Shown here: positions 10,641 to 50,280 of the stretch, one piece after another | Position numbering within the stretch: position 1 is the first letter of the stretch | How the letters are laid out: the number at the start of each line of letters is the position of its first letter | NCBI RefSeq assembly: GCF_016786325.1 | Contig: NZ_JADWYU010000131.1 | Coordinates: 16,523-69,037, forward strand | Length of the DNA: 52,515 nucleotides | Reading direction: 5' to 3' | Source of the DNA: Frankia nepalensis | GTDB taxonomy: Bacteria; Actinomycetota; Actinomycetes; Frankiales; Frankiaceae | Translations under genes and position numbers: made by a program | The notes under the pieces: generated by a model | Databases searched by the model: none | What the model saw: only the letters and a program-made list of their open reading frames with translations | Told to the model about the DNA's origin: nothing

Positions 10641-11305
10641 GATCCCGCCCCTCCCGCCGGCGCGCCGCCGGTCGGCGCCGGCTGCCCCGAGGCGACGGTC
10701 ACCGCGGCCGTGGCGGTCCATGACCAGGCTCCCGGCCGGTAGGCCCAGCCCGGGTCGACGCGGGGCGGCACCAGCCGGGCTGGCAGCCGCAGCGACGCGA
10801 GCTCGGCCGCCATCGAGCTGACCGCCCGCGGCTTGGCGACGGCCGCCGCGACCCGCTCGACCACCCACGCCAGCGCCGACAACAGCAGGCCCGCGCCCAG
10901 CAGGAGCGGGATGAACACGTTCGTGCGGCCGCTCGCGGGGTCGAGCCAGGAGAACGGGTTCGACAGCGCGGGCCGGCCCGCGGCGAGGACGGCCCGCAGC
11001 CGCCGCTGCTCGGACGACACCGCGGCCCCGGTCCACCCAGCCGTGGGAACGGAGCCGGCCAGGAGACCGTCGGTGGCGGGGTGGGCCGGGGCGGCCGGCG
11101 CGGCCCACGGCGCCGGCCTGGAGCTGGCGGCGCCGAGCCGGTTAGTGATCCACAGAGCGGCCAGCGCCACCTCGGCGGCGAGGAACACCAGGGCGGAGAA
11201 GACGGCGCGCTGCCACTCCCAGCGCACCAGGTAGGTGATGACGTAGCCGCCGCTGCCGAGCAGGGTCGCCAGGAGCGCCAGCACGGTGAGCCGACGAATG
11301 ATCAT
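10637..11305 (-). CDS. three-helix membrane protein, unknown function
   Basis: A 222-residue protein with hydrophobic segments at about 5-26, 34-53 and 130-150, separated by an Ala/Pro-rich loop, and a C-terminal region of about 70 residues containing VPPRVDPGWAYRP. No known family is recognised. The start has AAAGGAG 7 nt upstream and overlaps the stop of the PEP-utilizing enzyme gene by 4 nt; its own stop overlaps the next gene in the same way. The coupling implies a stoichiometric or functional link with the enzyme. Confidence 0.78.
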   Translation of the reverse strand: MIIRRLTVLALLATLLGSGGYVITYLVRWEWQRAVFSALVFLAAEVALAALWITNRLGAASSRPAPWAAPAAPAHPATDGLLAGSVPTAGWTGAAVSSEQRRLRAVLAAGRPALSNPFSWLDPASGRTNVFIPLLLGAGLLLSALAWVVERVAAAVAKPRAVSSMAAELASLRLPARLVPPRVDPGWAYRPGAWSWTATAAVTVASGQPAPTGGAPAGGAGS

Positions 11306-24672: not shown

Positions 24673-26030
24673 GCGGGAACCTCCCGGGGTCGGTGCGCCT
24701 GGGCGCTGGACGGTTCGGGGCGGCTGGATGGCTCGGGGCGGTGGTGCACCCGGGTTCCGGCGACCCACACCTCGGCGACGCGCGCCGGGCCGGCCGCCGC
24801 GACCGCGATGTCGGCGAGCGGCCAGTCCGGGTGGCCGAACAGGTGCCGCCATGGGCTCAGGTCGAGCAGGACGAAGTCCGCGGGCCGGCCCTCGGCCGGC
24901 GGCGCGGGCGCGGCCGCGCCGAACGCGGCCCGCCCGGCGGCGGTGGCTAGGGCGAGCGCCTCGGCGCCCGGCACCCGCCGGTGGGTCTGGGCCTGCCAGA
25001 GCCCGCGGGCGAGGCGCAGTTCCGCCCAGCCGTCGTGGTCGTCGGACAGGGCGAGCCCGTCGAGGCCGAGGCAGGCGGCACGGACCTTCGCCGCGGCCCG
25101 CGCGACCGGCGCGACGCCGGAGGCCAGCCGCAGGTTCGAGGAGGCGTTCAGGGCGAGCGTGACGCCACGCTCGTCGAGCAGCGCCAGCTCGTCGTCGCGC
25201 AGCTGGGTGCCGTGCGCGACGGTGGTCCGTTCGGTGAGCAGCCCGAGCCGGTCCATCGCCGGCAGAAGCCCTTCCGGGTAGACCTCGTCGGCCCACGCCC
25301 GCTGGGCCGGGCTCTCCAGCAGGTGCAGGTGCAGCCGGCGGCCCGTGGCGGCGCTGTGCTCGGCGAGGCGGGCGAGCGTTGCCTCGGCGACCCACTGCGG
25401 GCCGACCGGGCCGAACTGGAGGTCGACCAGTCCCGCCGCCGGCGTGCCGGCGACCTCGTCCGCCAGCTCGCCGGCGAGCCGTTCGACCTCGGCGATCAGC
25501 GCGTCTGCCGCGGCGGCGCCAGCGCCCCGGGCGTCGCGCCGCCGGCCCCGGCGGTCGCCACCCGCGTCGAGGACCGGGAACACGACGGCGGCGCGGATCC
25601 CCCGGGTGTACGCCGCCCGGGCCGCCGCGCGCACCTCGTCGACGACGTCGGGCCCGGTCGGGTTGACGCAGAAGACCGCGGCGCCCACGCCGGCGCGCAG
25701 CATGGCGTCCGCGGCCAGGCCGACCAGCTCATCCTGGCCGCGCGGGCGGACCGGCCGGCCCAGCAGGTCCAGCCAGTCCTCCAGCGGGGCGTCGGGGATG
25801 CCCGCGTCGACGGTGCCCGGGCCGCGGCCGTGGTCGTGCCCGTTCAGCAGCGGCGGGCACAGCACCAGCGTCGGTGCCGCCGCCGAGCCGGCCGGCGCGG
25901 GGCGCAGGGTGGCGATGACGCCGTCGTCGACCGCCAGCTCCCACCCGGTGCCGGTATCCGCCCCGGCCGCGGGCAGGCCGGCGTCGCCAATGACGCCGGC
26001 GAGCCGCCAGCGGCCGGTGCGTACGCTCAT
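24669..26030 (-). CDS. ATZ/TRZ-type amidohydrolase (cytosine deaminase-like)
   Basis: A 453-residue amidohydrolase of the ATZ/TRZ/guanine-cytosine deaminase group. Metal-site segments are NGHDHGRG (near 63), HLHLLES, TVAHGTQL and the late Asp in LSDDHDG; the second HxH is of the shortened H-x-H type and should be checked. Such enzymes remove an amino or other group from an N-heterocycle. It is translationally coupled to the ABC ATPase and follows the binding-protein gene by 49 nt, so its substrate is likely the imported compound or its first product. Confidence 0.8.
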   Translation of the reverse strand: MSVRTGRWRLAGVIGDAGLPAAGADTGTGWELAVDDGVIATLRPAPAGSAAAPTLVLCPPLLNGHDHGRGPGTVDAGIPDAPLEDWLDLLGRPVRPRGQDELVGLAADAMLRAGVGAAVFCVNPTGPDVVDEVRAAARAAYTRGIRAAVVFPVLDAGGDRRGRRRDARGAGAAAADALIAEVERLAGELADEVAGTPAAGLVDLQFGPVGPQWVAEATLARLAEHSAATGRRLHLHLLESPAQRAWADEVYPEGLLPAMDRLGLLTERTTVAHGTQLRDDELALLDERGVTLALNASSNLRLASGVAPVARAAAKVRAACLGLDGLALSDDHDGWAELRLARGLWQAQTHRRVPGAEALALATAAGRAAFGAAAPAPPAEGRPADFVLLDLSPWRHLFGHPDWPLADIAVAAAGPARVAEVWVAGTRVHHRPEPSSRPEPSSAQAHRPREVPA

Positions 26031-26079
26031 CGTCAGGCCTCGGTCCCTGGTCCGGTCCTCGCGGGTCGGGCGCCGTCGG

Positions 26080-27138
26080 CTACGCCGTCGCCCCGGCGCC
26101 GACCAGGATGTCGGTCGTCAGAACGGAGGCGTAGTCGACCGGCTTGTCGATGAGGCCGGCGGCCTTGTACAGGTCGTAGACCTTCTCGAAGGCGGCCTCG
26201 TCGACCCACATCAGGCCGTGCTTCTCGGTGTCCGGCCCGGTGATCAGCGGCACGGCGGCCTTCGCCGACTCCTTCTCGTCGGCGAGCACCGCGCCCGTCT
26301 CGTTGTGGTACTGGTCCCAGGTGTACTGGGCGATCTCCTCGGGGTTCTTCACGAAGTAGTCCCAGCCCTTGCGGTCCGCCCGCAGCCACCGGGTGAGCAG
26401 GTCCTTCTTGCCCTCGATGGTCTCCTTCGTCGCGAACAGGGCGTTGCCGTAGTCGGGGTTGCCGAGTTCGGAGAAGTAGGTGATGGTGACCGGCACGCCG
26501 GACTGCCGCAGCGACAGGCCCTGCTGGGTGCCGTAGCCGATGTAGCCGTCGACCTGCTTGGAGCTCAGGATGCTCGGGTCGGTGCCGACCGGGACCATGT
26601 TCACGGTGGACGGGTCGACGCCCGCCTGGCTGAGCATCGCCGACAGCAGCGGCCGTTCGGTGTTCGGCAGCCCGACCGTCTTGCCCGCCATGGCGGCGAG
26701 CGAGTTCACCGGGTTGTCCTCGAGGGACATCAGCGCGTTCGGGGTCGACTGGTAGATGGTGGCGAACGCCATCACCGGGATGTTCTTGCTGACCGACAGC
26801 AGGATGTCGGAGCCGTTCGCGTCGCCGATGTCGGCCTGGCCGCTGGTCACGACCGAGACCGGGTCGATGTTCGGGCCGCCGGAGACGAACTTCGCGTCGA
26901 TGCCCTCGGCGGTGAAGTAGCCGTTCTTCAGCGCGGCGAAGTGGCCGCCGAACTGGGTGAACTTCTTCCAGCCGAGCTGGCAGGTGACGGTCGTCAGGCC
27001 GGCGGCGGTCGTGGACGAGCTGTCGTCGTCGTCCGAGCCGCAGGCGGCGAGCAGCGGGCCGGCGGCGAGCAGGGCGCCGCCGCCGAACAGGCCGCGCAGC
27101 ACGGCACGGCGGCTGGCGGTGGAGTTGAGCGCAGACAT
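26080..27138 (-). CDS. ABC substrate-binding lipoprotein (NMT1/THI5-like)
   Basis: A 352-residue periplasmic-type binding protein. The N terminus has a twin-arginine-like SRRAVLRG, a hydrophobic stretch and a lipobox LAAC with Cys33, so it is a lipid-anchored protein probably exported by Tat. The body has the NMT1/SsuA-like layout (GYFTAEGIDAKFVSGG, GQADIGDANGSDIL). The family binds pyrimidines, sulfonates, nitrate and similar small solutes. ATG 27138 has GAGGG upstream. It is the receptor for the importer encoded next to it. Confidence 0.9.
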   Translation of the reverse strand: MSALNSTASRRAVLRGLFGGGALLAAGPLLAACGSDDDDSSSTTAAGLTTVTCQLGWKKFTQFGGHFAALKNGYFTAEGIDAKFVSGGPNIDPVSVVTSGQADIGDANGSDILLSVSKNIPVMAFATIYQSTPNALMSLEDNPVNSLAAMAGKTVGLPNTERPLLSAMLSQAGVDPSTVNMVPVGTDPSILSSKQVDGYIGYGTQQGLSLRQSGVPVTITYFSELGNPDYGNALFATKETIEGKKDLLTRWLRADRKGWDYFVKNPEEIAQYTWDQYHNETGAVLADEKESAKAAVPLITGPDTEKHGLMWVDEAAFEKVYDLYKAAGLIDKPVDYASVLTTDILVGAGATA

Positions 27139-40082: not shown

Positions 40083-41048
40083 TCACCGGCCGGGGCCGGG
40101 GGTGGCGCCGACCGGCCGGCGACCGGCGACCGGGGTGAAGGCGGCCCGGTGTTCGGCCACGAACGCCTCGATCGTCTGCGCGGGCAGGCCGGTGACCTGC
40201 TCGACCGTCCGGGTCAGCCGGTCGAACCTGTTCTCGCGGTGCATCCGCGCGAGGGTGAGCAGGTGCTGCTGGGCGAACGGCGGGAGCCCGGCGGCGGGCA
40301 GGATCTCGCGGGACCACCAGTCGGGGGCGACGTCCACGTAGGACACGGTCCGGCCCAGCGCGCGCGAGTACTCCTCGGCCACCGCGCTCATGTCCTGCGC
40401 TCGAGGGCCGGTGAGCTCGTAGACGTGCTCCCGGTGCGCCTCCGGGTCGGCGAGGAGCGCCGCGACGACCCGGGCGACGTCCCGGGCCGCCACCGGTGAG
40501 GTGCGGCCGGCGCCGAAGGGGAGGCTCAGGGTCCCGTCCCGGCGGATGGAGTGCGCCGCGAGGGACAGGAAGAGCGGGTTCTCGCAGAAGGCCGTCGGGC
40601 GGACGTGGGCCACCGGCAGGCCGGACCAGTCGAGCACCTGTTCGGACAGCCAGTGCAGCCGCTGCTGGTGGGACTCCCGCGTGCGCAGCGGGTTCATCTG
40701 GGACACCGTGAGCTGTGACATCGCCACCAGCCGCTCCAGGCCACCGGTGGCGCGGGCGACCGTGGCGACGGTCGCCGCCGCCTCCAGGTAGTCGGGCGAG
40801 ACGCTCATGGCGAAGTACATCCGGCGGCACCCGTCCAGCGCCCGGGCGACGTCGTCGGGCCGGGTGAGGTCACCGACGACGACCGGCACACCCAGCCCTC
40901 GCAGCGCGGCCGCCCGCTCGTCGTCCCGGTGCGCCATCGCGCGTACCGGCACCGACCGGGCCACCAGCAGTTCGACCACCATGCGGCCGACCCCGCCGAG
41001 GCCGCCCGCCGCTCCGGTCACCAGCACGGGGCCCGCGTCAGGACTCAC
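40083..41048 (-). CDS. NmrA-like NAD(P)-binding protein
   Basis: A 321-residue Rossmann protein of the NmrA/atypical SDR group: VLVTGAAGGLGGVG at the N terminus, GVPVVVGDLTRPD, and SHQQRLHWLSEQVLDWSGL in place of a YxxxK motif. GTG 41048 is chosen since it begins right at the Rossmann strand; GTG 41144 and ATG 41114 further upstream give a non-conserved lead. Members are redox sensors or quinone/isoflavone reductases. It is on the same strand as the EFE gene but 272 nt behind the small ORF that follows EFE, so co-transcription is uncertain. The interval 41049-41319 shows nothing else. Confidence 0.83.
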   Translation of the reverse strand: MSPDAGPVLVTGAAGGLGGVGRMVVELLVARSVPVRAMAHRDDERAAALRGLGVPVVVGDLTRPDDVARALDGCRRMYFAMSVSPDYLEAAATVATVARATGGLERLVAMSQLTVSQMNPLRTRESHQQRLHWLSEQVLDWSGLPVAHVRPTAFCENPLFLSLAAHSIRRDGTLSLPFGAGRTSPVAARDVARVVAALLADPEAHREHVYELTGPRAQDMSAVAEEYSRALGRTVSYVDVAPDWWSREILPAAGLPPFAQQHLLTLARMHRENRFDRLTRTVEQVTGLPAQTIEAFVAEHRAAFTPVAGRRPVGATPGPGR

Positions 41049-41319
41049 GTCATCACCCGCCCCCTCGCCCGCGGACGTCCAGCCGTCTCCGCCGGCGCGC
41101 GGGCTTCTGGGCATCGCTGCCCGCCCGCCATCGGCGGAAACCACACCACCGAAGACCAGGAGGCACCGGCGAGGCCGGCAGGCGCGGAATCACCCGACTC
41201 ACCCGAATCACGGGAGAATGCCGCGCGCAGGAGCCGAAGCAAATCATCACGGAATCGCCGCGATCCGGCGGGATTGGATCAAAATGCCCCGTCGGCGGCG
41301 CCCCGGGAGGGGCCGGCCC

Positions 41320-41520
41320 TCAGGCCGGCGCCGCGCTCGTGTCAGCGGCTCGCCCAGTACCGCCGCCACCGGTCAGCCCACGGTCCTGACCGCCGGCGTA
41401 ACCGGTGATCGGGGCCCGCGGTCGCGGCCCGGCCGATTCCACGACCTCCGGCGGGCGGAAATCACGATCGGGTCGAGCCCCATAGCCGCGCCAAAGCCGC
41501 GCGGCTCGGCGCTCGTTCAT
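41320..41520 (-). CDS. possible 66-residue protein coupled to the EFE gene
   Basis: An ATG at 41520 overlaps the EFE stop by 4 nt (ATGA), the coupling seen throughout this window, and the frame runs 66 codons (MNERRAARLWRGYGARPDRD...). No family is recognised; the second half is Gly/Ala/Thr-rich. A hairpin within it (41484-41506) could instead be the EFE transcript terminator. Treat as tentative. Confidence 0.35.
   Translation of the reverse strand: MNERRAARLWRGYGARPDRDFRPPEVVESAGPRPRAPITGYAGGQDRGLTGGGGTGRAADTSAAPA
41484..41506 (-). terminator. hairpin after the EFE gene
   Basis: AGCCGCGC (41484-41491) and GCGCGGCT (41499-41506), exact 8-bp arms with a 7-nt loop, 11 nt beyond the EFE stop. 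There is no U-run on the minus strand. Confidence 0.4.
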
Positions 41521-42533
41521 GGGACCAGGAGCGACAGCCGGTCCTCCTCGACGATCCGCCGCGTGGTGATGCGTTCGGGGTAGGAGCGCATGAACATGCT
41601 GGTGAAGTGTCGTCCGTAGTGGATGTGGTCGCCGTCTCCCCCGCCGGACAGCGGGCGGACGCGGGCCTGGAAGTTCGGCTCGTGGAAGTAGGCCAGGGCG
41701 AAACGCTCTCGGGTGTTGAGTATCACCTTGTGCGGAGTGGAGAGCAGGAATCCGTCGGTGATCAGCTGGAGCATGTCGCCCGGAAAGACCGTGAACACGC
41801 TCGGCACCGGCTTCACGTACGTCCACGGATCCTCGTTCTCGTACCTGCCCGCCATGCTTTGGCCGGGCAGCCAGTTCCTGCTCCGGCGCTCGCCGTGGAC
41901 CGGCGGGCGTATGTAGAGCCCGCCCACGTCGTCCTGCGCGGCGATCACCAGCAGCCCGTAGTCGGTGTGCGCCCCGATGCCCCTGCTCGTGTGCTCCGAC
42001 CGGGCCGGGAAGCGGAGCACGCGCATGTGGTGCCAGCCGTCCTTCGTCAGGTCCGTCAGCGCGTCGATGCCCACGCCCAGGCCGAGCGCCGTCAGCTTCA
42101 GCAGCTTCTCGCCGACGGTTCCCAGCTCCGCCATGAAGGCCAGCATCGCGCGGCGGTATTCGCCGTCCGGCCAGGGAGCCGGGCCGTGACATGGCCGCCG
42201 CGCCAGCACCCGGGGGTCGTCCAACGGGACGTCCGGGCAGACGGTGAAGATCTCCGAATAGTCCGATTCGCCGGCCGTCTGCTCCTCTCCCGACGCTATG
42301 TATCCGCTGTAGGTCAGGTCGCTGACGCATCCGCGTTTGAACTCGGCCGGCATGCCGAAGAAGCGCCTGCTGGACTCGATCGCGTCCTTCGTCTTCAGGT
42401 CCTGTGTCGGGTCGGTGGCGACCTGGAGGATTCCGTCGGTCCGCCACGCCTGGATCAACTCGTCGGCCAACTTGATGTTCGAGCCTCCGCCGTCGACGAA
42501 GTCGGGGAGCTGGAAGGTCCGGAGGTCGGCCAT
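41517..42533 (-). CDS. efe: ethylene-forming enzyme (2-oxoglutarate/Fe(II) oxygenase)
   Basis: A 338-residue protein strongly similar along its whole length to Pseudomonas syringae EFE (350 residues), which converts 2-oxoglutarate and O2 to ethylene plus CO2 and in a side reaction hydroxylates L-arginine, giving succinate, guanidine and pyrroline-5-carboxylate. From memory of that enzyme, the iron ligands His189, Asp191, His268, the 2-oxoglutarate-binding Arg277 and Arg171, and the L-arginine pocket Glu84, Thr86, Tyr192, Phe283, Arg316 and Tyr318 are all present at identical numbers; position 317 is Ser where P. syringae has Cys. Blocks such as CVSDLTYSGY, HTDYGLLVIAAQDDVGGLYI and NTRERFA are near-identical. 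ATG 42533 has AAGGAG 7 nt upstream. Local G+C is visibly lower than in neighbours (34 of 60 bases at 41701-41760), hinting at transfer. Confidence 0.93.
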   Translation of the reverse strand: MADLRTFQLPDFVDGGGSNIKLADELIQAWRTDGILQVATDPTQDLKTKDAIESSRRFFGMPAEFKRGCVSDLTYSGYIASGEEQTAGESDYSEIFTVCPDVPLDDPRVLARRPCHGPAPWPDGEYRRAMLAFMAELGTVGEKLLKLTALGLGVGIDALTDLTKDGWHHMRVLRFPARSEHTSRGIGAHTDYGLLVIAAQDDVGGLYIRPPVHGERRSRNWLPGQSMAGRYENEDPWTYVKPVPSVFTVFPGDMLQLITDGFLLSTPHKVILNTRERFALAYFHEPNFQARVRPLSGGGDGDHIHYGRHFTSMFMRSYPERITTRRIVEEDRLSLLVP

Positions 42534-42971
42534 CTCGGTCTCCTTCTGGAATTTGCGCGTCGATCCCACGGCACAATGGCGACGGTCTCACCCGACTTGT
42601 ACCAGAGGCGAATGCGCGACAGAACCGAAAGCGCGCCAGAGCCGCCGTGAACGGGGTTCCTTGACGGGCGCCGTACGCCCCAGATACCTGGTCCGGCCAT
42701 GTGACGGGGCCGGCCAACTTCACTGTCACTTTGGTGGGGTCAGATGTTCTCCGCGTACGGGCGGAACCTTCGCGGCCGGGTGCTCGCCGCCGTCGCGACG
42801 GCCGCGCCGCGCCCTCGTGGCGCGTCGTCGGGTGGCTTCGCGGGCGCGCTCCTGGCCCGCGTCCGGCCCGGTCGCTACCGTGGGGCGGTGATCCGCCGGC
42901 GGTGATCCGCCGGCGGGGCTCGACCGCCGCGCGGAAGGCGGACGGGCTGGGATCCGGCGGGGGGCATCTGC
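42534..42971. other. divergent spacer between EFE and lipoprotein genes
   Basis: The 438-bp spacer must contain promoters in both directions. A plus-strand TTGACG (42661-42666) with ATACCT 17 nt on is a possible promoter. GTGATCCGCCGGCG is duplicated in tandem at 42888-42915. No convincing operator or riboswitch was seen on the EFE side. Confidence 0.4.
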
Positions 42972-44033
42972 ATGGCCAGGCCACTGAGGCGGGTCTCACC
43001 GGCGTCGGCGGTGGCCTGCGCCGTCGCGCTGGGGCTCGTTCTGATCACCTCGTGCTCGGACGAGCCGGCGCGGCCGACGGTGGCCGCCTCGGCCACTGCG
43101 GCGCCCGCGGCGCCCGCGGCGGCCTCCCACGGGTGCCTGCCGGCGGATGATCCGGCCGCCTCGACGCGGGGCGGCTACGGCGTCGGCCAGACCCAGGTCA
43201 CGTTCGTCGACGACAGCCGTCCGACGGACGCCGTGCCCGACCGCGGCCTGGCCGGCAGGCCGGACCGCGCGATCCCGGTCGTCGTGAGCTACCCGGTCAC
43301 CCCGGCGGCCGGCGCCGCCCCGGACGCCCCGCCCGTCGCGGGCGCGCAGCCCGCCCCGGGCCAGTTCCCGCTGGTCGTGCTGTCCCACGGAGTGACCGCG
43401 GACGGGACCGTCGCGGCGAACGTGATCGCGGCGCCGCTCGTCCGCCACGGCTACGTCGTGGCCACCCCGACCTTCCCGCTGTCCAGTGGCCCCGGCGGGA
43501 CGATCCTCGACCTGCCGAACCAGCCGGCCGACGTCAGCTTCGTCATCACCTCGCTCGGCGCCTGGAGCACGGCCAAGGGGGCGCCGCTGGCCGGTCACCT
43601 CGAGCCGAGCTGCGTGGCGATCACCGGCCACTCGCTCGGCGCCGCGACCACACTCGCAGCCGCCTACCTGTCATGCTGCCGGGATTCCCGGGTCAAGGCC
43701 GTGGTGTCGATGGCGGGGACGCTCGCGCCGTTCAACGGAACCTTCGCCGACAACCCGCCGATCCCGCTGCTGATCCTGCACGGCGACCAGGACCAGACCG
43801 TGCCGCCGGCCAAGAGCGACGAGATGTTCACGACCCTGCGCGGGCCGCGCTACTACCTCACCCTGCACGGCGCCGGCCATTCGACGATGTTCTTCGACCA
43901 GGCGGGCCAGACCGTCGACCACGCGGTGGCCGCGTTCCTCGACGCCTACCTCAAGGGCGACTTCACCGCGCTGCGCGCGCTGCCGGACGACGTCCGCCGC
44001 TCCGGGCTCGCGACCTACCAGGCGGCCAGCTGA
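42972..44033 (+). CDS. secreted lipoprotein alpha/beta hydrolase (PET-hydrolase/lipase-like)
   Basis: A 353-residue hydrolase with a lipoprotein signal: basic start, hydrophobic stretch, lipobox ITSC (Cys28), then an Ala/Pro/Thr linker. The mature domain has LVVLSHG (oxyanion), nucleophile elbow GHSLGA, LLILHGDQDQTVP with the acid residue, and HGAGHSTMF with the catalytic His. This order matches platelet-activating-factor acetylhydrolase/dienelactone-type lipases exported by actinomycetes. Two adjacent Cys (SCCRDS) and one Cys before (PSCVAI) could pair. It is divergent from the EFE gene; no link in function is evident. Confidence 0.87.
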   Translation: MARPLRRVSPASAVACAVALGLVLITSCSDEPARPTVAASATAAPAAPAAASHGCLPADDPAASTRGGYGVGQTQVTFVDDSRPTDAVPDRGLAGRPDRAIPVVVSYPVTPAAGAAPDAPPVAGAQPAPGQFPLVVLSHGVTADGTVAANVIAAPLVRHGYVVATPTFPLSSGPGGTILDLPNQPADVSFVITSLGAWSTAKGAPLAGHLEPSCVAITGHSLGAATTLAAAYLSCCRDSRVKAVVSMAGTLAPFNGTFADNPPIPLLILHGDQDQTVPPAKSDEMFTTLRGPRYYLTLHGAGHSTMFFDQAGQTVDHAVAAFLDAYLKGDFTALRALPDDVRRSGLATYQAAS

Positions 44034-46698: not shown

Positions 46699-47322
46699 AT
46701 GGGCGCGCAGGTCGCCGTGGTGACGTTCGACGGGTTCAACGAGCTGGACAGCTTCATCGCCGCCGCGATCATCAACCGCTGCCGTCCCGACGGTCTGACG
46801 GCCTACCTCACCACCCCGACGCCGGTCGTCACCTCGATGAACGGTGTCGAGGTCACCGGCCAGCGCCCCCTCGGGTTCGCCGCGCAGGCCGACGTCGTGC
46901 TGGTCGGAAGCGGCATCAGGACGCGGGACGTCGTCCAGGACGACCGCCTGCTCGGAGCGCTTCCGCTGGACCCCGCCCGGCAGCTGATCGGTTCGCAGTG
47001 CTCCGGCGCGCTGGTGCTGGCGCGCCTCGGCCTGCTGGCGGCGGTCCCGGCCTGCACGGACGCCACCAGCCGCCCATGGGTCGAGGCCAGCGGCGTCGAG
47101 GTGCTGGACCGGCCGTTCCACGCGGTCGGGAACATCGCGACGGCCGGCGGCTGCCTGGCGTCGCAGTACCTCGCCGCCTGGGTGATCAGCCGAACGCTCG
47201 GCGAGGCCGCGGCCCGTGCCGCGATCGACTACGTGGCGCCGGTCGGCGAGAAACAGGACACGGTGGACCGGGTGCTCTCCGTCCTGCGGGCGGGCGACCA
47301 GCAACTCGCGGCCAGGCCGTAG
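46699..47322 (+). CDS. DJ-1/PfpI family protein
   Basis: A 207-residue class I glutamine-amidotransferase-like protein of the DJ-1/PfpI group: VAVVTFDGFNELD (Glu15 conserved), nucleophile elbow GSQCSGAL with Cys101, and GNIATAGGCLASQYLA at the C-terminal end. Members include isonitrile hydratases, glyoxalase III and regulators of unknown action. ATG 46699 follows GGGGGA. It starts 44 nt after the ATPase on the same strand and may be co-transcribed; a stress-related role would suit the metal context, but this is inference. Confidence 0.85.
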   Translation: MGAQVAVVTFDGFNELDSFIAAAIINRCRPDGLTAYLTTPTPVVTSMNGVEVTGQRPLGFAAQADVVLVGSGIRTRDVVQDDRLLGALPLDPARQLIGSQCSGALVLARLGLLAAVPACTDATSRPWVEASGVEVLDRPFHAVGNIATAGGCLASQYLAAWVISRTLGEAAARAAIDYVAPVGEKQDTVDRVLSVLRAGDQQLAARP

Positions 47323-47419
47323 GGCACCGCCGACCCAGGGGGCGGCATTTCTCCTCCGAGGGTTTCCCGTTCCGCCGGTGGCCGGTAAAGCCCCGGCCGG
47401 TGGATGGAAAATATGGGCC

Positions 47420-48904
47420 ATGTCGGGGGACGCCGATGCCGCGGCGCGGCTGGACTTCTTCGTCTCCTCCACCCGCGCCGACCAGGCGTGGGCGGAGTGG
47501 GTGGCGTGGTGGCTGGAGGACGCCGGCTACCGGGTGCTGTGCCAGCCGTGGGACTTCGTCCCCGGGTCGAACTGGCGGGTCAAGATGCAGGAGGGGATCA
47601 CCCGGGCATCCCGGACGATCGCGGTGCTGTCCACCACCTATCTCACGTCCGTGTATGGGCAGGAGGAATGGCAGGCCGCGCAGGCGGCGGACCCGCGAGG
47701 GCTGGAGCGCAAGCTGCTCCCGGTCCGCGTCGAGGACTGCGACCGTCCCGGTCTGCTCGGCTCCGTGATCTCGATCGACCTGTTCGGTCTGTCCGCCGAG
47801 ACGGCTCGGCTCCATCTGCTGCGTCATGTCCGCGCCGCGCTGGATGGCCGGATGAAGCCGGCCTCCGCCCCGGCTTTCCCAGCCACGCCGGGTCCACGTT
47901 CGCCGGCTCGGGAACCATCCTTCCCCGGTCACCCGGCCCCGCCGTCCGTACCCAGGCGCGGACCGGTCGCCGGCCTCCTCCCGGGTCACACGGGCGAGGT
48001 GGGGTCGGTGGCGTTCGCGCCGGGCGGGCACATCCTGGCGACCGGTGGCGTCGACATGACGGTCCGGATGTGGGAAGTCACCGACCCGCCCGCTCTGCGC
48101 CCCGCCGGCCAGCCCGTCGCCGGCCACACCGACCGGGTGAGGTCGGTCGTGTTCGCCCCGGACGGGCGCGTCATGGCGACCTCCAGCGCCGACGGCACGA
48201 TCCGCCTGTGGGACGTCACCGACCCGGCCAGGCCCCACCTCAGCGGCCGGCCCCTCACCGGCCACACCCCTTGGGCGTGGTCGATGGCGTTCGCGCCGGG
48301 CGATCGGATCCTGGCCACCGTCGACGACCGCAGAGCGCGGTTGTGGGATGTGACGCGTCCTGCCCGGCCCCGCCTGCTCGCGAACTGGTCGACCGGCCAC
48401 GCGGACTGGGTACGGTCGGTGGCGTTCGCGCCGGACGGTCGGACCCTGGCCACCAGCAGCACCGACGGGACCGTGCGCCTGTGGGACGTCACCGACCCGG
48501 CCACGCACCGGCCGATCGGTGATCCCCTGACCGGCCACGGCCGCGAGATACGACAGGTGGCGTTCGCGCCGGACGGACGCACGCTGGCCACCGCCGGCGC
48601 CGACACGGCGGTGTGGCTGTGGGACCTGACCGATCGGGCAGCGCCCTGCCCGATCGGCGAGCCGCTCGCCGGCCACACCGCCTCGGTGCGCTCGGTCGCG
48701 TTCGCGCCGGACGGACGGACGCTGGCCACCGGCAGCACCGACGCGACCGTGCGCCTGTGGGACGTCGCCGACCCGGCAGCGCCCAGACCGCGCGGAACCC
48801 TCACGGGCCATACCGACAGGGTGAAGGCGGTCGCGTTCGCGCCGGGTGGGAATCTCCTGGCCACGGGCAGCAGCGACGCGACGGCGCGGCTGTGGGTCAT
48901 CTGA
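47420..48904 (+). CDS. TIR-domain WD40-repeat protein
   Basis: A 494-residue protein with a TIR domain (about 10-140: LDFFVSSTRADQAWAEWVAWWL, GSNWRVKMQEGI, AVLSTTYLTSVYGQEEW), a Pro-rich linker (145-182) and seven WD40 blades (185-494), each ending in a version of TVRLWDVTDPA: one complete beta-propeller. The TIR domain keeps acidic residues Glu82/Glu83 where bacterial TIR NADases have the catalytic Glu. TIR domains of this kind cleave NAD+ or act as adaptors; the propeller probably recognises a partner. Blades 2, 4 and 6 are nearly alike, a sign of recent internal duplication. No second defence gene is adjacent. Confidence 0.9.
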   Translation: MSGDADAAARLDFFVSSTRADQAWAEWVAWWLEDAGYRVLCQPWDFVPGSNWRVKMQEGITRASRTIAVLSTTYLTSVYGQEEWQAAQAADPRGLERKLLPVRVEDCDRPGLLGSVISIDLFGLSAETARLHLLRHVRAALDGRMKPASAPAFPATPGPRSPAREPSFPGHPAPPSVPRRGPVAGLLPGHTGEVGSVAFAPGGHILATGGVDMTVRMWEVTDPPALRPAGQPVAGHTDRVRSVVFAPDGRVMATSSADGTIRLWDVTDPARPHLSGRPLTGHTPWAWSMAFAPGDRILATVDDRRARLWDVTRPARPRLLANWSTGHADWVRSVAFAPDGRTLATSSTDGTVRLWDVTDPATHRPIGDPLTGHGREIRQVAFAPDGRTLATAGADTAVWLWDLTDRAAPCPIGEPLAGHTASVRSVAFAPDGRTLATGSTDATVRLWDVADPAAPRPRGTLTGHTDRVKAVAFAPGGNLLATGSSDATARLWVI

Positions 48905-49057
48905 AGCCGGACGCCGGCGAGGCTCGGAAATCCGACGCGGCGGCACCGTCCGCTTCGCCCGCTTCGCCGGCGGCGGACGTCCCAGCGGGCGCCGGTAACC
49001 GCGCCCCCAGCCGTTCACCCACCTGACGGGCGGTTCAGAACCAGCCGGCGGCGGACC

Positions 49058-49825
49058 TCAGGTCGTTTCCCGTTCGAACCAGCCTTCCGGAGAGCGCAAA
49101 GACGATTCAAGGGTTGCCTGAGCACCGCTGGGAGCGCACCACTGGACCGCGTTCGCGAGCACCAGCTGGACCTCGGGATGATGGTAGACGGGATGGGTCT
49201 CGTGGCCAGGGCTGAAGTAGAAGACCTTTCCCTGACCGCGGGTCCAGCACATACCGCTACGGAAGACCTCCCCGCCCGAGAAGTTACTGATGAACAGAAG
49301 GGAATCCGGGGCCGGTACGTTGAAAGGCTCCCCGTACATCTCGTGGGCGGGAAGGACGATGGGCCCAGATATCCCCCGCAGAATCGGGTGCCCGGGCATG
49401 ATCGGCCAGAGGATCTCCCTGTCGTTTCCCTCGCGCCAGCGCAGGTGACAGTTCGTGCCCATCAGCCGACGGAAGATCTTCGACAGGTGGCCGCTGTGCA
49501 GCACGATCAAGCCCATCCCCTGCTGCACGCGGCGCTGCAGCCGGTCCACGACCTCGTCCGCGATCACGTCGTGCGCGACGTGTCCCCACCACAGCAGGAC
49601 ATCGACCTCGGCGACGCGGGCCGAGCTCAACCCGTGGTCGGGCTCCTGCAGGGTCGCGGTCTCCACCAGCGCGCGTTCCCCGAGCAGCCGACGCAACGCG
49701 GCGGCGATCGTCTCGTGCATGGTCAGCGGATACGCCTGCCGTACTTCGTGATCCTCCTGGTCGTGCACGTTCTCGCCCCAGACCAGGACCCGCGGCGGAC
49801 GTCGGGAACCATCCATTTCCAGCAT
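49058..49825 (-). CDS. ThuA-like (trehalose-utilization) glutamine-amidotransferase-fold protein
   Basis: A 255-residue ThuA-family protein: RVLVWGENVHDQ at the start, DVLLWWGHVAHD, QGMGLIVLHSGHLSK, WPIMPGHPILRGI, GKVFYFSPGHETHPVYHHPEV at the end. Family members sit in sugar-utilization operons and have an amidotransferase fold without a proven reaction. ATG 49825 has GAGGA upstream. It stands alone between the TIR-WD40 and NUDIX genes with no sugar genes nearby. G+C is somewhat lower than in flanking genes. Confidence 0.85.
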   Translation of the reverse strand: MLEMDGSRRPPRVLVWGENVHDQEDHEVRQAYPLTMHETIAAALRRLLGERALVETATLQEPDHGLSSARVAEVDVLLWWGHVAHDVIADEVVDRLQRRVQQGMGLIVLHSGHLSKIFRRLMGTNCHLRWREGNDREILWPIMPGHPILRGISGPIVLPAHEMYGEPFNVPAPDSLLFISNFSGGEVFRSGMCWTRGQGKVFYFSPGHETHPVYHHPEVQLVLANAVQWCAPSGAQATLESSLRSPEGWFERETT

Positions 49826-50280
49826 GCCAGTTCCTCGTCTCAGATTCCTTGGCGCCGGTGCCTTGGCTCCGGTGCCGCTCTCGCGCTGGGCCAGGCGGCG
49901 CGGCGCCGCGTCGGCCATGGGCGGCGGGCCGTCGCCGGGGTCACCACACGATCCGCCGCCCCGGAGATCCGTGCCGTCAGCGCCGGGACAGCCGGTCCGG
50001 TCCGCCGCCCAGATCCACCCGGTCGAGCACTGACGGCCGCGCCCAGAACGTCCAGAAAAGCCGTAAAAGGATGCGGCATCCGAGCGTGACGACACCCAGG
50101 AGACCGGCCGCTGGCCGTAGCCCGCCGGCAGGGCGACTGGGCGGCCGGGCGTCGGCACATCGCCGGCCGCCCGCCCTGGCGGACGCGGGCCACCGGGACG
50201 CGGACCAGCTCGCTGGTCCACGGCGGTGGATCGCCTACGTCAGTGAATGGCCCAGGTCAGATGCCCGGGTCGCCGGCCGG
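49826..50280. other. intergenic, no gene found
   Basis: 455 bp without a supported gene. It should contain the ThuA promoter near its left end. The only structure seen is the hairpin at 50202-50219. Confidence 0.5.
50202..50219 (-). terminator. hairpin downstream of the NUDIX gene
   Basis: GGACCAG-CTCG-CTGGTCC, a 7-bp stem with a 4-nt loop, about 60 nt after the NUDIX stop on the minus strand. Confidence 0.4.

Follow-up and report, generated by a model that had tools for sequence, protein, structure and literature searches.

A predicted ethylene-forming enzyme gene in Frankia nepalensis and its possible link to guanidine metabolism

We analysed a stretch of 52,515 nucleotides from Frankia nepalensis (hereafter the window) and found that the gene at 41517-42533 on the minus strand very probably encodes a true ethylene-forming enzyme (EFE), with ethylene and guanidine as its likely output. 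An earlier note on this DNA had proposed an EFE gene in an actinomycete, and this proposal is supported by the sequence, the predicted fold and the phylogenetic tree. The wider interest of the gene is its pairing with a guanidine hydrolase and its occurrence in Frankia relatives without detectable nitrogenase. The predicted enzyme would be an Fe(II)/2-oxoglutarate (2OG) oxygenase that, with bound L-arginine, splits 2OG into ethylene and CO2; in a second branch, arginine would be hydroxylated at C5 and fall apart into guanidine and pyrroline-5-carboxylate (P5C). The host can probably degrade guanidine via a guanidine hydrolase that is encoded elsewhere in its genome. The analysis establishes homology, active-site residues, predicted fold, tree position and the presence of the hydrolase gene; what the enzyme catalyses, in which ratio the products form, whether efe is expressed and how plants would respond are inferred. 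The features around the gene are as follows.

41517..42533, minus strand: efe, ethylene-forming enzyme homologue of 338 amino acids (homology, residues, tree, predicted fold)
42545-42540, minus strand: AAGGAG, likely ribosome-binding site, 6 bases ahead of the efe ATG (sequence)
42534..42971, no strand: gap of 438 bases between efe and its divergent neighbour, within which the efe promoter would lie
40083..41144, minus strand: NmrA-like NAD(P)H-binding protein, the next gene 3' of efe, 372 bases away
42972..44033, plus strand: alpha/beta hydrolase (PAF-AH/PETase-like), divergent neighbour of efe
47216-48904, plus strand: TIR-domain protein that also has seven matches to WD40 repeats (domain search)

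We prefer the ATG at 42533 to the GTG at 42569 as the start of efe because of the AAGGAG motif. The plus strand over 41517-42533 also reads as protein, which differs from the efe product. The region upstream of efe was inspected by eye for a nitrogen-regulator box, and no Rfam family reached its gathering threshold in the window. Proteins that combine TIR and WD40, as at 47216-48904, are met in signalling or defence. The efe gene appears to act as a lone gene with no obligatory partner.

The efe protein carries the Pfam domains DIOX_N and 2OG-FeII_Oxy, the usual pair of 2OG oxygenases, and none of the NCBIfam models matched it. It is encoded by the single efe of the host genome, where the second-best match is 29% identical. 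Residues 1-335 align to residues 1-335 of the Pseudomonas enzyme (PsEFE) with zero gaps, 63% identity and an E-value of 2.1e-147; both the end-to-end alignment claimed beforehand and its suggested repetition were thus borne out. An AlphaFold2 model, based on 37 aligned sequences, has a mean pLDDT of 90.6. With Foldseek, this model matches 6vp4_B, the complex with Fe, arginine and 2OG, with a TM-score of 0.97 and 63% identity over 336 columns.

The active site is largely that of PsEFE. The earlier note had listed 11 residues that define the activity (E84, T86, R171, H189, D191, Y192, H268, R277, F283, R316 and Y318), and all are present at the same numbers; arginine-site position 85 was missing from that list, and the window protein has Gln there, two relatives Arg. 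When we consider the ligand-site residues listed in PMC9101411, 21 of 23 are kept, the exceptions being Val85 to Gln and Cys317 to Ser. The Fe(II) ligands (H189, D191, H268), the residues for the 2OG carboxylates (R171, R277) and the hydrophobic 2OG cage (10/10 residues named in PMC11025135) are all kept. In the L-arginine site, which is our own grouping of the residue list in PMC9101411 (E84, V85, T86, A87, D91, Y192, F314, R316, C317, Y318), eight of ten residues are kept; Ser317 is also found in the active Myxococcus stipitatus EFE (PMC9101411). The long beta-11 loop retains E215 and aligns to PsEFE without a gap.

Relatives of efe were retrieved by scanning genome contigs. Among the best 80 of 570 matches, L007-L057 form the EFE group with 55-76% identity (tblastn), and L058-L086 have 26-31%; L056 and L057, which contain internal stops, scored lower in the multiple alignment. 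The tree comprised 58 rows, of which 48 were EFE-group loci and seven were outgroup rows; the other three were the window and two more genomes from the same genus. It left out L053, L056 and L057, which are incomplete or carry internal stops, as well as L089 and L090 (duplicates of L007 and L008); PsEFE itself is absent from the rows and four other Pseudomonas EFEs are included. In this tree, whose bootstrap is not fully settled, the five Frankiaceae rows form one clade (100/96) that is nested in a larger, supported one (21 rows, 96/84), whose other members are from myxobacteria, cyanobacteria, Pseudomonas and Hahella. The 21-row clade contains Scytonema NIES-4073 (L009), which is 71% identical to the window protein and for whose EFE ethylene formation is documented both in vitro and within E. 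coli (PMC9101411). The EFE of Myxococcus stipitatus, not itself a tree row, is active too (PMC9101411). A tree of 2OG oxygenases had been suggested as a check, and the window protein falls inside a supported clade (96/84) with a proven ethylene former.

Two observations concern EFE genes outside this family. A plasmid gene of Streptomyces clavuligerus (NZ_CP065243.1 243067-244161) is 44% identical to the window protein. We rejected plasmid-borne EFE, this gene being the one match at E 1e-60 in 72,556 records. In Kibdelosporangium (L018 9003-9923), a second DIOX_N gene lies directly 5' of efe.

The earlier note had described a lower local G+C and taken it to suggest acquisition by transfer. The dip is present: the two 1-kb bins at 41001-43000 have a G+C of 0.705 and 0.697, compared to 0.753 in the next bins on both sides; bins with still lower G+C occur at 26001-27000 (0.680) and 49001-50000 (0.679). 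As background for codon usage we used 166 genes from 17 stretches (one of them on the contig of the window) together with 35 window genes, all called with a simple GC rule. Among these 201 genes, efe lies at the 2.5th percentile of G+C, and at the 3.5th and 6.5th percentile for first and second codon positions. The same protein encoded with host codons would have a G+C of 0.675, compared to the observed 0.673, and GC3 (39th percentile) and the codon-usage score (34th percentile) are unremarkable. We thus conclude that the low G+C of efe is no sign of transfer because the protein composition accounts for it, and the step from G+C to transfer fails.

A recent horizontal acquisition, seen as a low-G+C gene, appears unlikely. 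Besides the dip in G+C, it would fit the patchy spread over 5 of 35 Frankiaceae genomes, the lack of adjacent neighbours common to the intact Frankiaceae efe loci, a weak integrase-core match by efe in G006, and the best tree, in which the Frankiaceae stand apart from other actinobacteria and beside cyanobacteria and gammaproteobacteria. However, codon usage and GC3 are native, the expected G+C equals the observed one, and the Frankiaceae EFEs form one clade. Furthermore, a single clade of all actinobacterial rows is not rejected by the AU test (p 0.366), and transfer inferred from the tree was rejected for this reason. The missing synteny says little, since the genes flanking efe also have no conserved neighbours in the genus.

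The adjacent neighbours of the five intact Frankiaceae efe loci all differ. The NmrA-like gene at 40083-41144 adjoins efe in none of the other Frankiaceae loci examined; in G001, about 19 kb separate its relative from efe. The alpha/beta hydrolase at 42972-44033 has relatives in five further genomes of the genus, none of them adjacent to efe. When the flanking genes were used to look for an empty site, their relatives in the genus lay elsewhere with no further shared neighbours, except in G001 (about 19 kb). In G006, an integrase-core match is located just upstream of efe (L107 10841-11107; 27.2 bits versus a cut-off of 26.5). A conserved operon around efe was rejected, as only three of the first 45 neighbour clusters with at least three loci cross genera, combining Lentzea and Rhodococcus (8 loci), Myxococcus and Pyxidicoccus (4 loci), or Kibdelosporangium, Nostoc and Streptomyces (3 loci). 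A further survey passed over twelve loci of the same genus and gave 76 neighbours, 17 of which were compared with Pfam, plus three from L106 and L107.

The gene can also be lost. In G003, a close relative of G001, only a remnant of efe is left (G003:C17; L108 9843-10093), with about 84 residues retained and about 254 codons gone. It sits at the place that matches G001, in a shared block whose genes are 89-97% identical. We counted this case against the EFE reading, as the gene is dispensable there.

The host (G000) belongs to the Frankiaceae, which also hold Candidatus Frankia meridionalis (G015, L007) and Frankia sp. CIT1 (G009, L008). An EFE with more than 70% identity is found in 5 of 35 Frankiaceae genomes: three of eight in the genus of the window, two of five in the genus of the cluster-2 strains and none of 22 elsewhere in the family. 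The 393 genomes drawn from the class include all 35 Frankiaceae genomes; eight of the 393 have an EFE at a threshold of E 1e-90, and five of these eight are the Frankiaceae genomes above.

Ethylene formation has previously been connected to nodulation in Frankia. In PMC9392346, efe was found in all metagenome-assembled genomes (MAGs) of island-lineage cluster-2 Frankia, together with expression in field nodules of Coriaria, and nodulation there was suggested to need ethylene; L008 corresponds to the MAG CiT1 of that study, and L007 (Cppng1) is among the genomes that it used. By analogy, efe in the window might be a symbiosis gene that provides ethylene for intercellular nodulation, and the earlier note had envisaged a role in root nodules of this host. 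The MAGs and the nodule expression favour such a role. However, the best nifH match in the host scores 29 bits (cut-off 394) in an assembly of 398 contigs with 96.8% completeness, and the root-nodule role is not supported for this host. No nifH exceeds the cut-off in the EFE-bearing G001 and G006 either. Overall, 25 of 35 Frankiaceae genomes have nifH above the cut-off, including two of the five EFE genomes, and EFE is missing from 23 of these 25. Since nifH exceeds the cut-off in none of the three EFE genomes of the genus, EFE does not track nitrogen fixation, and we regard the symbiosis gene as a quite improbable explanation. The lack of nifH is compatible with nodulation without fixation.

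These findings qualify the nodulation proposal of PMC9392346, since efe also occurs in Frankiaceae without detectable nifH. That study used the genomes of F. inefficax and F. saprophytica for its phylogeny; the passages on efe in its main text do not report the gene from either species, and the word guanidine is absent from the main text. ACC deaminase, the counter-activity, exceeded the TIGR01274 cut-off in none of 35 Frankiaceae genomes, of which 25 have weak matches; according to PMC6624747, genes associated with ACC deaminase are present in all its Frankia strains but F. casuarinae. For Frankia, that paper refers to ACC deaminase; EFE comes up there with Pseudomonas and Penicillium. In the literature searched, including the accessible text of PMC6624747 and PMC6786969, we found no efe in Frankia beyond PMC9392346. 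The novelty for an actinomycete that the earlier note implied does not hold, as efe had already been published in Frankia (PMC9392346) and a homolog in Streptomyces scabiei (PMC8369830). Its view that the characterised EFEs come from plant pathogens and a fungus is likewise dated, as cyanobacterial, myxobacterial and Ralstonia EFEs have been shown to form ethylene (PMC9101411).

To interpret the second product of the enzyme, two further features of the host genome are relevant (L160, which is G000:C88:28000-37000).

G000:C88:33604-34794 (L160 5602-6795), minus strand: guanidine hydrolase (GdmH, arginase family; homology to proven guanidinases)
G000:C88:34842-34982 (L160 6843-6983), minus strand: guanidine-I riboswitch-like RNA (Rfam match below the cut-off)

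The host GdmH has end-to-end homology to proven guanidinases, with E-values of 1.7e-218 for 9fek, the Nitrospira inopinata guanidinase (PMC11410670), and 5.9e-171 for 7esr/7oi1 (Synechocystis GdmH); the next best solved relative is a proclavaminate amidino hydrolase (E 2.3e-53). The riboswitch-like RNA lies directly 5' of gdmH and is a full-length match (1-107) with 43.3 bits versus a gathering cut-off of 63. The gdmH gene is followed by genes for the binding protein and permease of an ABC transporter. A riboswitch match (45.7-49.5 bits, below the cut-off), the hydrolase and the binding-protein gene also occur together in G004, G005 and G006.

In the host, efe and gdmH are located on separate contigs. 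We found the two genes next to each other in two other genomes. In Ca. F. meridionalis (L007, 10001-12271), the hydrolase starts about 75 bases past the efe stop on the same strand, with an ATG near 11099 after GAAGGAG. In Nostoc mirabile (L010, 10001-16623), it lies 264-300 bases past efe, both genes having the same orientation, and hypA, hypB and an ABC transporter come next. Both cases fell below the count of at least three loci in the neighbour clusters and were found by a separate search for the hydrolase. The L007 hydrolase is 92% identical to that of CIT1, which is not beside efe, and 61% identical to that of Nostoc, which suggests that the two pairings arose separately. No riboswitch was detected near the pair in L007 up to E 0.1 or in L010 up to E 0.01. 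In Nostoc mirabile, three tandem NsiR1-like nitrogen-stress RNAs (L010 3086-3436), one of them above the Rfam cut-off, precede efe by about 6.6 kb. To our knowledge of the literature searched, including the accessible text of PMC12186494, PMC11410670 and PMC12335538, a natural efe-gdmH pair has not been described.

Both efe and the hydrolase are present in 13 of the examined genomes (11 of 48 genomes of the retrieved loci, plus G000 and G006); the search in 48 genomes omitted L042, L056 and L057. If genomes are independent and gene positions uniform, the chance probability of two adjacent pairs in 13 genomes is about 4e-5 to 1e-4. In the remaining 11 of 13, no hydrolase gene was found in the examined stretch around efe, which speaks against a link, as do the separate contigs in the host. 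Within the Frankiaceae, the hydrolase occurs in four of five EFE genomes, compared to 5 of 30 without EFE (Fisher p 0.010, uncorrected for kinship). For other actinobacteria, the frequencies are 6 of 30 EFE genomes and 13 of 358 genomes in the class draw, where taxa differ and three EFE genomes are among the 358. Also against a link, the hydrolase is absent from the EFE-bearing G001 and from all four myxobacterial and all six gammaproteobacterial EFE genomes examined. The EFE genomes G167, G210 and G301 of the class draw have none; in the third cyanobacterial EFE genome (G769), none lies within 20 kb of efe. We rejected the guanidine-I riboswitch as tracking efe: in the genus, match and efe occur together in G000 and G006, efe alone in G001 and the match alone in G004 and G005, all matches being below the cut-off. 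No guanidine-III riboswitch was found in the eight genomes of the genus.

In these bacteria, EFE may thus form guanidine as a physiological product. Tentatively, we consider it possible that the EFE of Frankiaceae and of some cyanobacteria, being encoded beside the hydrolase or in a genome that also has it, serves guanidine metabolism mainly or to an equal degree, with ethylene as a gaseous co-product. Arginine would then be converted to P5C and guanidine, and the hydrolase would recover guanidine as urea and ammonia.

The guanidine branch could also dominate. The window protein might be an EFE-like arginine 5-hydroxylase, in which a polar residue 85 and other changes favour guanidine release with little ethylene. 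Position 85 is Gln in the window protein, Arg in G006 and G001 (the other EFE members of its genus), Val in both cluster-2 Frankia and Glu in five other actinobacterial rows, and it is Val, Ile or Leu in the tested EFEs (PMC9101411). Furthermore, seven of the ten positions correlated with ethylene by Johansson 2014 (PMC4202696) are kept, and E213H, E235D and I254M differ; in that study, E235D had no major effect and a double change at 212 and 213 reduced ethylene. The differences at position 85 and at these three positions also count against the EFE reading. The presence of the hydrolase in four of the five EFE-bearing Frankiaceae genomes points in the same direction. However, the 2OG pocket is of the ethylene-forming type, and in molecular dynamics simulations (MD) of the variants R171A and Y306A, arginine touches the backbone and not the side chain of V85 (PMC11025135), so that a side-chain change at this position may be tolerated. 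In addition, both activities go back to the primordial enzyme according to PMC12329707, which gives ethylene:P5C ratios of about 2-6:1 for PsEFE, the Penicillium enzyme and the most active ancestors. A hydroxylase with little ethylene is therefore very unlikely in our view.

The 2OG pocket can be followed at position 279, which is Ala in all five Frankiaceae, six cyanobacterial, four Pseudomonas and two Hahella rows and in three of four myxobacterial rows. In 24 of 30 other actinobacterial rows it is Thr or Ser. PMC12329707 lists Ser280, which aligns to Ala279, among the changes by which the 2OG pocket becomes more hydrophilic in an ancestor with almost no activity. By these residues, the Frankia EFEs look closer to proven ethylene formers than most other actinobacterial homologues do. 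For the actinobacterial homologues L012-L052 (Thr or Ser279 in 24 of 30), ethylene formation merits attention. Single rows of the Streptomyces/Actinomadura/Nonomuraea EFE group have Ala84, Asp86 or His318. The residue counts from the multiple alignment include L056 and L057, which distort single letters there.

A 2OG oxygenase outside the EFE family with another substrate is extremely unlikely: the superfamily (Pfam DIOX_N and 2OG-FeII_Oxy) has many functions and no NCBIfam model matches, but the protein is 63% identical to PsEFE, its arginine and 2OG sites are conserved and it falls in the EFE clade.

So far, EFE has been read as a tool with which a pathogen disturbs plants; for Frankia it has been seen as a factor in nodulation. 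Two findings point instead to a metabolic function independent of plants: the enzyme occurs in Frankiaceae in which nifH is not detectable, and it is paired with gdmH in members of two phyla. For natural guanidine, which many bacteria sense, the efe-gdmH pair offers a concrete candidate source and sink. If EFE does serve guanidine metabolism, non-fixing relatives of Frankia would be natural soil sources of ethylene and guanidine, and the view of efe as a marker of ethylene-dependent nodulation would need revision.

Lastly, we compared the window protein to known systems. PsEFE of Pseudomonas savastanoi/syringae (PDB 6vp4, 5v2y) shares 63% identity without gaps, the same predicted fold and the same metal, 2OG and arginine residues apart from positions 85 and 317, whereas the window protein has Q85, S317, L280, S93, H213, D235 and M254 and an actinomycete host. 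The Penicillium digitatum EFE (PDB 9eir, 9eis) is alike in fold, and its active site is reported to be similar to that of PsEFE; identity is 51-54% for seven of the eight chains listed and 49% for 9eis_D, and it has Asn at the position of Cys317. The EFE of Scytonema sp. NIES-4073 (Efe_SS, PMC9101411), for which ethylene has been shown, is 71% identical and in the same clade, but comes from a cyanobacterium and has V85 and C317. The EFEs of island-lineage cluster-2 Frankia (Candidatus Frankia meridionalis Cppng1 and CiT1), published in PMC9392346, have 73-76% identity and share one clade with the window protein. They differ in having V85 and nifH-bearing hosts, and in Ca. F. meridionalis, unlike in the window, the guanidine hydrolase is the next gene downstream of efe.
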